This document shows positions 1 through 60,600 of a stretch of DNA of 64,000 nucleotides, piece after piece. The stretch is from a virus. The DNA lies in IMG/VR virus record IMGVR_UViG_3300028146_000001, positions 1 to 64,000 of that record. One strand, given 5' to 3'. The notes under the pieces were generated by a model that was not told where the DNA came from, made no database searches, and saw only the letters and a list, made by a program, of their open reading frames with translations. Both the position numbers and the translations under genes were made by a program. Position 1 is the stretch's first letter. Every line of letters starts with the position of its first letter.

Positions 1-147
1 TTGAAATGCGTCGTCATCAAGGAGGTTTATTGCGATGACTGCACCGAAGAAGAGGCGAGAAACAATCCGTGGGAACACGTCGAAGGCGACGAAATGGAAA
101 TCGAACAGACTGATTGGGAAGTCCAGCAAGTTGAACCGAACGAATGA
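1..147 (+). CDS. Partial hypothetical acidic phage protein (5' end at window edge)
   Basis: Open from base 1 to a TGA at 145-147, 48 codons. It is acidic, with a Cys-x2-Cys pair near the start and a Trp- and Glu-rich tail. Base 1 happens to be a TTG, but there is no room to see a ribosome site, so the gene probably begins outside the window. The next gene starts inside the stop codon (ATGA), which supports reading this frame. I do not recognise the family. Confidence 0.6.
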   Translation: MKCVVIKEVYCDDCTEEEARNNPWEHVEGDEMEIEQTDWEVQQVEPNE

Positions 148-294: not shown

Positions 295-325
295 GCCTCC
301 CGTTGCGTTGACGGGAGGCTTTTTT
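295..325 (+). terminator. Rho-independent terminator
   Basis: A 9-bp perfect stem (295-303 with 311-319) with a 7-nt loop, followed directly by six T residues (320-325). It ends the transcript of the two preceding genes and isolates the RNA unit that starts near 364. Confidence 0.9.
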
Positions 326-327
326 AT

Positions 328-355
328 TTGCTTTTCCGATTTCACGTTGTAGACT
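328..355 (+). promoter_or_regulatory. Candidate promoter of pseudoknot RNA 1
   Basis: TTGCTT (328-333) and TAGACT (350-355) are 16 bp apart. The hexamers are moderate, but the layout matches the better promoter at 60180-60208: both place the first base of a stable stem 9 bases after the -10 box, and both have ATCGT between. The match between the two copies is the main support. Confidence 0.5.
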
Positions 356-363
356 CTATCGTG

Positions 364-459
364 TCCGTGCGATTTCCAACCGAACACTCGATACTCCCAG
401 ACTTCGCGGCATCCATCTCTCGCACGGATCGGAGCATACACCGCGAGTCTGGGATTTTT
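364..459 (+). ncRNA. Predicted pseudoknotted RNA, copy 1
   Basis: Two strong stems cross. Stem A pairs 364-372 with 420-428 (9 bp, perfect). Stem B pairs 395-409 with 441-454 (14 bp, one bulged T at 404). The 5' arm of B lies in the loop of A and the 3' arm of A lies in the loop of B, an H-type pseudoknot topology. Stem B is followed by T5 (455-459), so it can act as an intrinsic terminator. The first loop carries CCAACCGAACAC (376-387), which recurs in the RNA at 60217-60307. It may be a free small RNA or a conditional leader for the gene starting at 470 or 494. I recognise no known RNA family. Confidence 0.55.
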
Positions 460-469
460 GGAATGAACA

Positions 470-892
470 ATGAAATCACTGAAAGAACAAATCATGGGTA
501 AATGTCGCCACTTCAACGGCTTGATGAATAAAGCCTGCGAAGTTGGCGTTAAATACGACGACGTTTGCACGCCATGCACAGACGGAGTTGGCAAGAATAT
601 ACCCTGTTTATTCAAAGGGGATGCCACTTGCGAAAAACGCCAAGTTGTCACGGAAGACGAGGCCGACGCTGAGATTGAGGAACACAAGAAGCGTTTCGCC
701 CGCGTTGGCATCGCTCGCAAGGCTATCGTCGATCATCTCGGCGGTCCTTGGAAGAAAGGAACGGCTGGCGCTGGCGGAAAGATTCCTTGCCCGAACTGCC
801 AAACCGGAACGCTGGCATTTAGCCGAGCCGGTAGCAATGGACACATTAACGCTGCTTGTAGCACAACTGATTGCGTTTCTTGGATGGAGTAA
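470..892 (+). CDS. Conserved phage hypothetical with Cys/His motifs
   Basis: 140 residues from 470; an ATG at 494, directly before the Cys-Arg-His-Phe-Asn-Gly motif, may be the true start because similar phage proteins begin there. The N-terminal half resembles the common phage pattern of C-x-H-F-N-G followed by spaced cysteines. The C-terminal third has a second metal-site candidate (CPNC near residue 106 and CSTTDC near 130), like a topoisomerase-type zinc ribbon. It is the first gene after the RNA element at 364-459 and runs into the ParB-like gene 5 bp later. Function unknown; nucleic-acid binding is likely. Confidence 0.8.
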   Translation: MKSLKEQIMGKCRHFNGLMNKACEVGVKYDDVCTPCTDGVGKNIPCLFKGDATCEKRQVVTEDEADAEIEEHKKRFARVGIARKAIVDHLGGPWKKGTAGAGGKIPCPNCQTGTLAFSRAGSNGHINAACSTTDCVSWME

Positions 893-4254: not shown

Positions 4255-4887
4255 ATGAGCGAAACAATTCAATACCGTGGCATCAAGGACTTCCCAGGCT
4301 ATCGCATCGGCGATGATGGTAGCGTTTGGACTTGCAGACTCACATTCACTTCATTGCAAGGTCAAAACGCTCCGTCGTTTGCATGGATAAAAATGTCTCT
4401 TCCAGTCAGGGAGGATGGGTACGTATACGTCACACTCTATCGAGCGAGCAGGAAGTTTACTCGCTATGTCCATCGCCTTGTCCTTGAATCTTTCGTCGGC
4501 CCGTGTCCAGAAGGAATGGAGGCGTGCCATTATCCAGACAAAACCAGAAGCAATAACCGTCTGAGGAATCTCCGGTGGGATACGAGGCCAGAAAATCACA
4601 AGGATAGGTTCAGGGACATGACGCCGATAATTAATAAACGATGTCCACGTTGCGGATTCGTGAAGAAAAGGAGTCTTTTCGGATCGACCAGCAAAAATTA
4701 TGCTGGCGTTCCGGTTTGGTGTAATGATTGCGTTTGCAGCGAAAATCGCGTTCAGTACGCGAAACGAAGATGCTTGAAGGCGATGCAGAGCCTTCCCGAC
4801 GATGCCGCGCGGGACCGCGTTCTTCAATTCATCAACAGCAAATGGCAGACAAAGCCGAGTGAGCCGCAGATTGGCAAACCGGCGTGA
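4255..4887 (+). CDS. Free-standing HNH homing endonuclease (NUMOD4/HNH)
   Basis: 210 residues. Residues 5-30 match a NUMOD4-like segment (W/Y-x-x-I-x-GYRIGDDGSVW). Residues about 74-120 contain the HNH_3-type core: HRLVLESFVG, EACHYPD, then N-x2-NLRWDTRPEN. A C-terminal zinc ribbon (CPRC and CNDC) may help DNA binding. Such genes move by cutting alleles that lack them. It has its own frame between short hypothetical genes and lies just before a tRNA, a common insertion neighbourhood. Confidence 0.9.
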   Translation: MSETIQYRGIKDFPGYRIGDDGSVWTCRLTFTSLQGQNAPSFAWIKMSLPVREDGYVYVTLYRASRKFTRYVHRLVLESFVGPCPEGMEACHYPDKTRSNNRLRNLRWDTRPENHKDRFRDMTPIINKRCPRCGFVKKRSLFGSTSKNYAGVPVWCNDCVCSENRVQYAKRRCLKAMQSLPDDAARDRVLQFINSKWQTKPSEPQIGKPA

Positions 4888-4895
4888 TCGTCCAT

Positions 4896-4942
4896 CTCGC
4901 CAGCCGTGGGGGACCACGGGCCTTGTGGCAGGATGGGGCGAG
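4896..4942 (+). other. Structured leader upstream of the tRNA
   Basis: CTCGCC (4896-4901) can pair with GGCGAG (4937-4942), enclosing a tight hairpin CCGTGG-GGGA-CCACGG (4904-4919) with a GNRA-type tetraloop. It fills most of the 61-bp gap between the endonuclease gene and the tRNA. It might guide tRNA 5' processing or be part of an insertion footprint. Confidence 0.4.
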
Positions 4943-4948
4943 TGGTTT

Positions 4949-5021
4949 GCGGGTATAGCTCAAATGGCAAGAGCGCTGGCCTTCCAAGTCAGACGTGGCG
5001 GTTCGAGTCCGCTTACCCGCA
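4949..5021 (+). tRNA. tRNA-Gly (anticodon TCC)
   Basis: A complete cloverleaf. The acceptor stem pairs GCGGGTA (4949-4955) with TACCCGC (5014-5020), discriminator A at 5021. There is a D arm with GCTC/GAGC, an anticodon stem CTGGC/GTCAG with loop CTTCCAA (anticodon TCC at 4983-4985), a 4-nt variable loop and a T arm with loop TTCGAGT. CCA is not encoded. It reads GGA and could supplement host decoding of phage genes. Confidence 0.95.
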
Positions 5022-5038
5022 TTTCTCAGGAGTCGCCG

Positions 5039-59911: not shown

Positions 59912-60178
59912 ATGCGAAAGACCATCGACGACCTTATCCGCGAAGTCAACCAGCTTGAACCTTGGGAAGCCGACATGCGGAAAGACATCCATCTCCGCGA
60001 ACAGCGCGAGCGCCACGCCAACAAGGGTATCCGAGTGGTGAGGGGGAAGGTTCTACCGCTTGCGGGCTATCAGATGCCACCGGAAGCGGCTGAGACGCGG
60101 GAAATCGTGTTCTCGGACCTCTCGCAAGAGCAACGCCATTCGATCCGCCAGATTGCGGAAGAACCCGACGACGAATAA
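59912..60178 (+). CDS. Small hypothetical early protein
   Basis: 88 residues from the ATG at 59912, again with CCAAACCCCAGGAG (59890-59903) upstream. Helical and charged throughout. Ends one base before the promoter at 60180. Confidence 0.65.
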   Translation: MRKTIDDLIREVNQLEPWEADMRKDIHLREQRERHANKGIRVVRGKVLPLAGYQMPPEAAETREIVFSDLSQEQRHSIRQIAEEPDDE

Positions 60179-60179
60179 T

Positions 60180-60208
60180 TTGACAAGGCCGGATTCGTGG
60201 GCAATAGT
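60180..60208 (+). promoter_or_regulatory. Consensus-like promoter of pseudoknot RNA 2
   Basis: TTGACA (60180-60185), 17-bp spacer, AATAGT (60203-60208). It begins 2 bp after the previous stop and places the RNA 5' end at the first base of stem A (60217). Confidence 0.65.
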
Positions 60209-60216
60209 AGATCGTT

Positions 60217-60307
60217 CGGCCACGGTAATGCCAACCAACACACCCCCAACCCGATCAGCAATTCTTACCGTGGCCGGAAAAGAACCTGAGACGGTTGGGG
60301 ATTTTTT
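60217..60307 (+). ncRNA. Predicted pseudoknotted RNA, copy 2
   Basis: Stem A pairs 60217-60228 with 60265-60276 (12 bp, perfect). Stem B pairs 60244-60251 with 60293-60300 (8 bp). The stems cross as in copy 1. The first loop contains CCAACCAACAC (60231-60241), matching copy 1 except for one G. Stem B is followed by A and T6 (60302-60307). The matching promoter geometry, topology, loop motif and terminator point to one RNA family used twice. It may be a free small RNA or a switch for the gene at 60319. Confidence 0.6.
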
Positions 60308-60318
60308 CATGGTGCAGA

Positions 60319-60600
60319 ATGGCAACCAAATGGACAAACCACCCAGGCGTTTTGTATCTCGAAATGGAAGTCAATTTTCTTTCGAGCGGATACTACGATG
60401 CCGGTCAAACATGCGGCCCGCCCGAAAGTTGCTACCCGCCAGAAGGTGAGGACGAACGCACGCTGGATACCATCAAGATCGGCGACAAAGAATTGCCGAA
60501 GGAACTGGCGGAAAAGCTGTTCGAGTTTTTGCAAGCGGACGTTGACGCGGTTGAAATGGAAACGCCGGAATACGAGCCGCTTGAAGACGACTATATGTAA
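60319..60600 (+). CDS. Small acidic early protein
   Basis: 93 residues from the ATG at 60319; an ATG at 60361 is an alternative, and neither has a good ribosome site. The C-terminal half is acidic (LPKELAEKLFEFLQADV). It is the first gene after RNA copy 2, so its expression may depend on read-through. Confidence 0.6.
   Translation: MATKWTNHPGVLYLEMEVNFLSSGYYDAGQTCGPPESCYPPEGEDERTLDTIKIGDKELPKELAEKLFEFLQADVDAVEMETPEYEPLEDDYM

Follow-up and report, generated by a model that had tools for sequence, protein, structure and literature searches.

Does the gap between an early operon terminator and the next gene of a phage genome hold an RNA gene, a switch for the gene behind it, or stems that cross by chance? 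The gap lies in IMG/VR record IMGVR_UViG_3300028146_000001, of which 64,000 of 65,380 bases (the window) were analyzed. A sequence-only reading had described a promoter, two interlocking stems, and a terminator at 326–469, and mentioned a second copy. Both stems, their crossing, and the T5 run were found at the same positions, and the interpretation as a whole is partly supported.

Genome and gene layout

Window positions 1–127 recur at record positions 65254–65380 as a direct terminal repeat of 127 bases, which makes it probable that the record covers a full circular genome of 65,253 bases. Pfam matches include a portal and an adaptor like those of phage SU10, the portal match falling under its curated cut-off. 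Further genes match families of large terminase, ERF annealing protein, and ParB-like protein. The phage is probably a podovirus. A rough gene finder placed early-type genes on the + strand from ~55.7 kb through the junction to ~11 kb, and most others on the − strand. A tRNA-Gly (anticodon tcc) at 4948–5022 (+) has 79–86% identity over most of its length to Pseudomonas phage and cyanophage tRNA genes.

Unit 1 fills the gap between predicted genes at 279–469. The terminator reported ahead of it is present at 295–325 (+), where an 11-pair stem (295–319, −23.7) and a T6 run close the upstream operon; it is the only strong canonical + strand terminator found in the window. Directly 3′ of the unit is an open reading frame at 470–892 (+), missed by the rough gene finder and kept from the ORF list. 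It encodes 140 aa from the ATG at 470 or 132 aa from the ATG at 494; residues 68–132 of the 132-aa form match phrog_31210, and no Pfam match was found for the product. The ParB-like gene follows at 898–1902, 0.4 kb downstream of unit 1. Unit 2 fills the gap at 60179–60318, between a gene ending at 60178 and a 93-aa gene at 60319–60600 (+) that matches phrog_14000 (E 3.5e-4). About 1.5 kb upstream of unit 2, a gap between two early genes contains a Type-P5 twister ribozyme (Rfam RF02684; 58680–58740, +) scoring 43.0 bits against a gathering score of 37.6.

Structure of the two units

The structure of unit 1 and its T5 run occupy 356–459. Stem A pairs 363–372 with 420–429 (+) and has nine Watson-Crick pairs (364–372/420–428), or ten including the G-U pair 363/429. 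Stem B pairs 395–409 with 441–454 (+), as nine pairs (395–403/446–454) and five pairs (405–409/441–445) on either side of a bulged T404. Loop 1 carries the motif CCAACCGAACAC at 376–387 (+), and the T5 run at 455–459 (+) is the probable transcript end. Stem B with its U-run is terminator-like, as had been proposed. The sigma70-like promoter TTGCTT-16-TAGACT at 328–355 (+) is weak (7/12, under the scanner threshold), and calling it moderate was generous. The scanner listed 2 sites in 5 kb, where 2.6 were expected, and this promoter was not among them. It listed no other promoter-like site between the terminator at 295–319 and the gene at 470, so the operon beginning there probably depends on the unit 1 promoter and read-through.

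Evidently the second copy is the unit at 60180–60307, whose parts stand in the same order. Its promoter, TTGACA-17-AATAGT, scores 10/12 (60180–60208, +). Stem A pairs 60217–60228 with 60265–60276 (+), the loop 1 motif CCAACCAACAC is at 60231–60241 (+), and stem B pairs 60244–60251 with 60293–60300 (+). A short inner stem C (TCAG; 60255–60258, +, with 60286–60289) lies behind a 3×3 internal loop and forms the best nested fold together with B. A T6 run at 60302–60307 (+) is the probable transcript end. The order common to both units is −35, 16–17 nt, −10, two bases, ATCGT, 5′ strand of A, loop 1, and 5′ strand of B, then 3′ strand of A, 3′ strand of B, T-run, a spacer (10 nt in unit 1 and 11 nt in unit 2), and ATG.

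Both units carry the loop motif CCAACC(G)AACAC, 2–3 bases 3′ of the 5′ strand of stem A. The pattern CCAACCN{0,2}AACAC has only two matches window-wide, both in the units, against 0.07 expected, an expectation that is post hoc since the motif was spotted by comparing the two. In a gapless alignment of the stems, both bases are changed in 6 of 9 pairs of A and in 3 of 8 pairs of B (9/17 in total), and every pair stays intact; two perfect helices yield such counts by construction, so these differences add little alone. Aligned globally, the units score better than all 500 letter shuffles. In local alignment to the entire window, whole-unit similarity is modest (ranks 22–71 of ~4,240 windows), and homology by sequence alone is unconvincing there. 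On these comparisons the units are probable, not proven, paralogs.

Folding and chance expectation

Nested folding of 356–464 gave a z score of −3.3, with 1 of 200 shuffles equally good. Nested folds permit A or B, never both. A pseudoknot energy was estimated by summing stem energies and adding a pseudoknot penalty of 9.6 kcal/mol, which is rough and leaves out loop terms. This gave −40.2 for the pseudoknot versus −32.0 for the best nested fold in unit 1, and −35.1 versus −29.9 in unit 2, an estimated advantage of 5–8 kcal/mol for the modeled pseudoknot in both. The pseudoknot topology that had been claimed is thus borne out in its crossed stems and favored by the rough energies. Loop lengths of 22, 10, and 11–12 nt (unit 1) and 15, 13, and 16 nt (unit 2) seem enough to accommodate both stems at once. 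In prefix folding, A was closed at 431 in unit 1 and at 60278 in unit 2, ahead of the 3′ half of B. The suggestion that A forms first and then delays B holds in its first part; since no base belongs to both stems, they can coexist, and A need not delay B.

An H-type scan requiring a T5 tail, run on both strands of the window, ranked 60215–60300 (−47.5) and 359–454 (−44.5) far above the third hit (−27.1). In 100 dinucleotide shuffles the best hit averaged −32.7 and never fell below −42.3; for the second best the mean was −30.1 and the minimum −37.8. Both units beat all 100. Two T5-tailed outliers of this kind mean that unit 1 is real and has a twin. When no T-run was demanded, the units still ranked 1 and 2, on the + strand; the best hits of 12 shuffles reached down to −44.4, so crossing by itself is not unusual in 64 kb of sequence. 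Interlocking stems had been called hard to get by chance, which stands for stems with a T-run and is overstated for the crossing itself.

The composite scan covered 400 sequences, namely the window and 399 loci that are a non-random phage sample. Crossed stems with a T-run at ≤ −30 numbered 165 in real sequence versus 146–170 in shuffles, which is no enrichment. Demanding an adjoining promoter at the same energy brought enrichment: at ≥ 8/12 there were 19 real cases versus 5, 2, 3, 1, 6, and 4 in six shuffles. With a promoter of ≥ 9/12 there were 7 versus 0, 0, 0, 1, 1, and 0, where the 7 include members of the CAU/AGY family described below, each counted singly. Unit 2 is inside both promoter classes and unit 1 (7/12) is outside them.

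Searches for homologs

Scans of viral and genome contigs and of the fetched phage loci turned up no further copy of unit 1 or unit 2, and no close relative of the phage was found. As single queries, P0001 and terminase found no relatives of the phage in viral_contigs. Alignment queries found terminase relatives (best five 34–44% identity; L018–L022), ERF relatives at 38–39% identity at best, and ParB-like relatives; no unit was found in the terminase-relative and ERF-relative locus sets. An 18-mer of the unit had one viral match, in a stretch that looks coding. The pattern CCAACCN{0,2}AACACN{40,70}GGGATTTTT matched 10 viral loci and a looser form at least 100; both sets were taken as chance, as was a genome_contigs scan for the motif (45 loci, 44 distinct matches, best −26.8). 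Among 80 distinct motif matches in the fetched loci and the window, the units scored −47.5 and −44.5, ahead of a third match at −33.1.

A window-wide Rfam 15 search matched neither unit at gathering score. At E ≤ 10, the unit 1 region had matches only to the 295–325 terminator and its tail, and unit 2 had one chance match. An antisense role for loop 1 was rejected, its duplexes with 90 gene-start regions being no better than those of shuffled loops (56–148 of 200 equally good). Through its motif, unit 1 loop 1 can pair before the gene at 60319, at the 3′ strand of unit 2 stem B (−12.5 kcal/mol); 113 of 200 shuffles match that value at their best site, so the pairing was not used. Such a phage RNA was not described in the titles and abstract openings of a largely open-access literature, a weak negative.

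A phage RNA family with related architecture

A scan for a promoter, crossed stems, and a T-run in 398 fetched loci (4.15 Mb) identified an RNA family with a CAU/AGY internal loop in most members. Its first carriers were several phage contigs fetched as relatives of the ParB-like gene at 898–1902. The units at L335:2851–2948, L336:2737–2834, and L343:2178–2280 are alike, and BLAST with the L336 unit added GenBank phage MW202484.1 (L401:1516–1612). In these four sequences, crossing helix A has double changes in 5 of 8 pairs and 96.9% of its cells are paired. Taking the four helices together, double changes affect 12 of 31 pairs, where shuffles give 6.4 and none of 500 reaches the real count; slid controls collapse. 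The set is small, and one of its members supplied the structure. The covariance check proposed with the earlier reading thus succeeded on phage RNAs of like architecture, homologs of the window units having not been found.

A covariance model built from these four (R1) found L364:4603–4699, L396:9194–9314, L339:5535–5635, and L386:10402–10505 (E 1e-5 to 0.008); it also gave weaker wrong-strand matches at its four training loci. A model built only from these latter four (R2) recovered the original four (E 5e-17 to 7e-12) and found L372:6138–6251, L342:6953–7077, L348:10210–10327, and L340:9379–9506 (E 2e-10 to 2e-8), with 0 wrong-strand matches and no match in 73 further loci. Of the last four, L372, L342, and L348 share the signature already found by descriptor and L340 is a near variant by eye; all are similar to L396, so the independence of the R2 matches is partial. 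The family thus has members at 12 loci. One locus that looked similar by eye (L380) was matched by neither model.

None of the ten members checked against Rfam (all except L342 and L372) reached the gathering score. A promoter-like site scoring ≥ 8/12 lies directly upstream of at least 7 of the 12 (L336, L343, L364, L339, L386, L348, and L401). Members sit after primase, nuclease, recombination, or replication genes, as judged by eye and, for L401, by searching its neighbors. In several, 250–530 nt pass before the next convincing ORF, which favors a free RNA. Searches of bacterial genomes returned 0 matches, with R1 in 299 genomes of one family and in 4 single genomes, with the R1 pattern in 300 genomes, and with R2 in 399 genomes of one order; these lacked a positive control and are uninformative.

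Several observations were made beside these searches. Directly behind the L348 pseudoknot, on a viral contig, lies a Betaproteobacteria-1 sRNA (RF02932; L348:10339–10460, +, 85.6 bits); other members also have several hundred bases free of a convincing ORF behind the unit. The deposited "hypothetical protein" gene at L401:1538–1897 (MW202484.1) shares part of the sequence of the RNA unit and probably reflects an annotation artifact. An apparently noncoding stretch at L029:6540–6900 (− strand) combines crossed stems and a T8 run with a start resembling a promoter, and has no Rfam match. Locus L235, read on the − strand, has C/G-rich repeats (ACCCCTTCGCC...) outside long ORFs at 1638–1730 and 4832–4914, two copies in one locus with very strong crossed stems and a T-run.

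The window units and the CAU/AGY family have in common the order A5′, loop, B5′ (C5′), A3′, (C3′) B3′, and U-run. Family members have a crossing A and a two-part B/C stem, and unit 2 likewise has B, a 3×3 loop, and a short inner stem. Crossing A, the two-part terminator stem, the U-run, and the adjoining promoter are all found in the window units, the promoter of unit 1 at only 7/12. However, three family features are missing from the window units: the internal loop CAU/AGY, an AUGAAG preceding B, and a hairpin that lies between C and A. They are also followed at once by a gene, whereas the family members mostly have no immediate downstream gene. Neither model matched the window at E ≤ 5, while R2 scores 42–75 bits at 8 other loci. 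With filters off, R1 gave 2.5 bits to unit 1, 7.3 bits to unit 2, and 8.4 bits to the wrong strand of unit 2. A descriptor of the CAU/AG[CU] internal loop, run on all loci and the window, had no window match; this loop is also missing in L339 and L386, although R1 finds both. Since the window units fail both models, they share the family architecture and descent is unproven. They look like a real, uncatalogued type of phage RNA.

Interpretation

The best explanation, which we hold to be somewhat probable, is a self-terminating RNA gene that would in addition meter the following gene. It retains the earlier reading of a free RNA and possible switch, as a candidate role read from the DNA. Transcription, termination, read-through, and loop recognition are what we infer from the observed parts. 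RNA polymerase would start just before stem A, which would close first; the 3′ half of B would then thread the loop of A and pair. An H-type pseudoknot would result, its second stem and U-run doubling as an intrinsic terminator. The main product would be a compact RNA of ~95 nt with the loop 1 motif exposed as its putative recognized part. Some polymerases may read through into the gene starting 10–11 nt later, and by that fraction the unit would also set the level of the operon it heads. A promoter of its own, an end at the T-run, and free-standing architectural relatives speak for such an RNA gene. Against it, B spans an interval of 31 nt (unit 1) or 41 nt (unit 2), long for an intrinsic terminator, the unit 1 promoter is weak, the two units are only modestly alike over their full sequence, no homolog of either unit was found, and a gene follows at once.

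The absence of enrichment in crossed stems with T-runs when no promoter is demanded also weighs against the RNA gene, and it is the argument for ordinary intrinsic terminators beside promoters in which the crossing of stem A is chance. This we regard as improbable, given two outliers in one window, perfect A stems of 9–12 bp in matching positions relative to the two promoters, the common loop motif, and the covarying A helix of the analogous CAU/AGY family. A further rival is a purely cis-acting leader, an attenuator or riboswitch-like element in which a protein or small molecule bound at loop 1 or the pseudoknot would choose between termination and read-through, leaving the RNA as a by-product. 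The start codon lies 10–11 nt past the T-run in both units, the terminator at 295–319 cuts off upstream transcription so that the operon at 470 seems dependent on passing unit 1, and the common motif would suit one shared ligand. However, the downstream genes match two different families, neither with an assigned function, and the architectural relatives are mostly free of an immediate downstream gene. Since A and B do not compete for bases, there is also no classical antiterminator. A purely cis-acting role is possible, if rather unlikely; a self-terminating RNA gene and a cis leader are not mutually exclusive.

Two related copies, each heading one of two consecutive + strand transcription blocks, would also fit antitermination of the HK022 put kind, where a folded RNA stays on RNA polymerase. 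Phage HK022 likewise carries two similar put RNAs of ~70 nt, downstream of PL and PR (PMC9378689). However, put consists of two stem-loops, the word "pseudoknot" being absent from the main text of that paper (PMC9378689), the unit structure ends in its own T-run, and the terminator at 295–319 is the only strong canonical one on the + strand to overcome downstream. Put-like antitermination is accordingly very improbable here.

A wider, speculative proposal we consider doubtful. Promoter-driven, pseudoknot-embedded terminator RNAs might form a broad uncatalogued phage class of several origins, in which the two paralogs would coordinate two early operons through their shared loop, stem A timing terminator folding and one CCAACC(G)AACAC-binding factor switching both. 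What the analysis contributes is a pair of defined RNAs predicted in a single phage, together with a family of 12 phage RNAs whose pseudoknot covaries and which had no Rfam match among the members tested. Pseudoknots are not represented in covariance models of the kind used, and this may be part of the reason that such RNAs stay unlisted. If the terminator truly needs the pseudoknot, the units would be a small natural model in which to study the control of termination by folding order.

Comparison with known systems

Few phage noncoding RNAs are known outside model phages. HDV-like ribozymes have P1 and P2 crossing, with P3, P1.1, P4, and a catalytic C. The units have the same order of P1 and P2; an HDV-like assignment was rejected for the predicted structures, as there is no room for P3 or P4 (linkers of 10 nt and 11–12 nt in unit 1) and no Rfam match. 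ToxI-type antitoxins are, as predicted for the units, pseudoknotted RNAs upstream of a gene, and are formed of tandem repeats accompanying an endoribonuclease gene. The units resemble such type III toxin-antitoxin RNAs in being small RNAs (PMC8860590). Unlike them, each locus has one unit and no repeat array, and the downstream proteins match no toxin family.

Fluoride, SAM-II, and HMP-PP "terminator-embedded" riboswitches are described as combining a pseudoknot and a terminator in one leader, as the units do, and a SAM-II leader is predicted to terminate and yield an sRNA (PMC11077080, PMC9373788, PMC6478431). Unlike those riboswitches, the units have no Rfam match at gathering score, and the genes behind them are phage genes without assigned function. 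Like the units, HK022 putL and putR are a related pair of short, structured RNAs close to where early phage operons begin; a terminator of their own is not described in the passages on them (PMC9378689). The predicted structure of the units departs from the two stem-loops by which put binds RNA polymerase and suppresses distant termination, and combines instead two crossed stems with a T-run.
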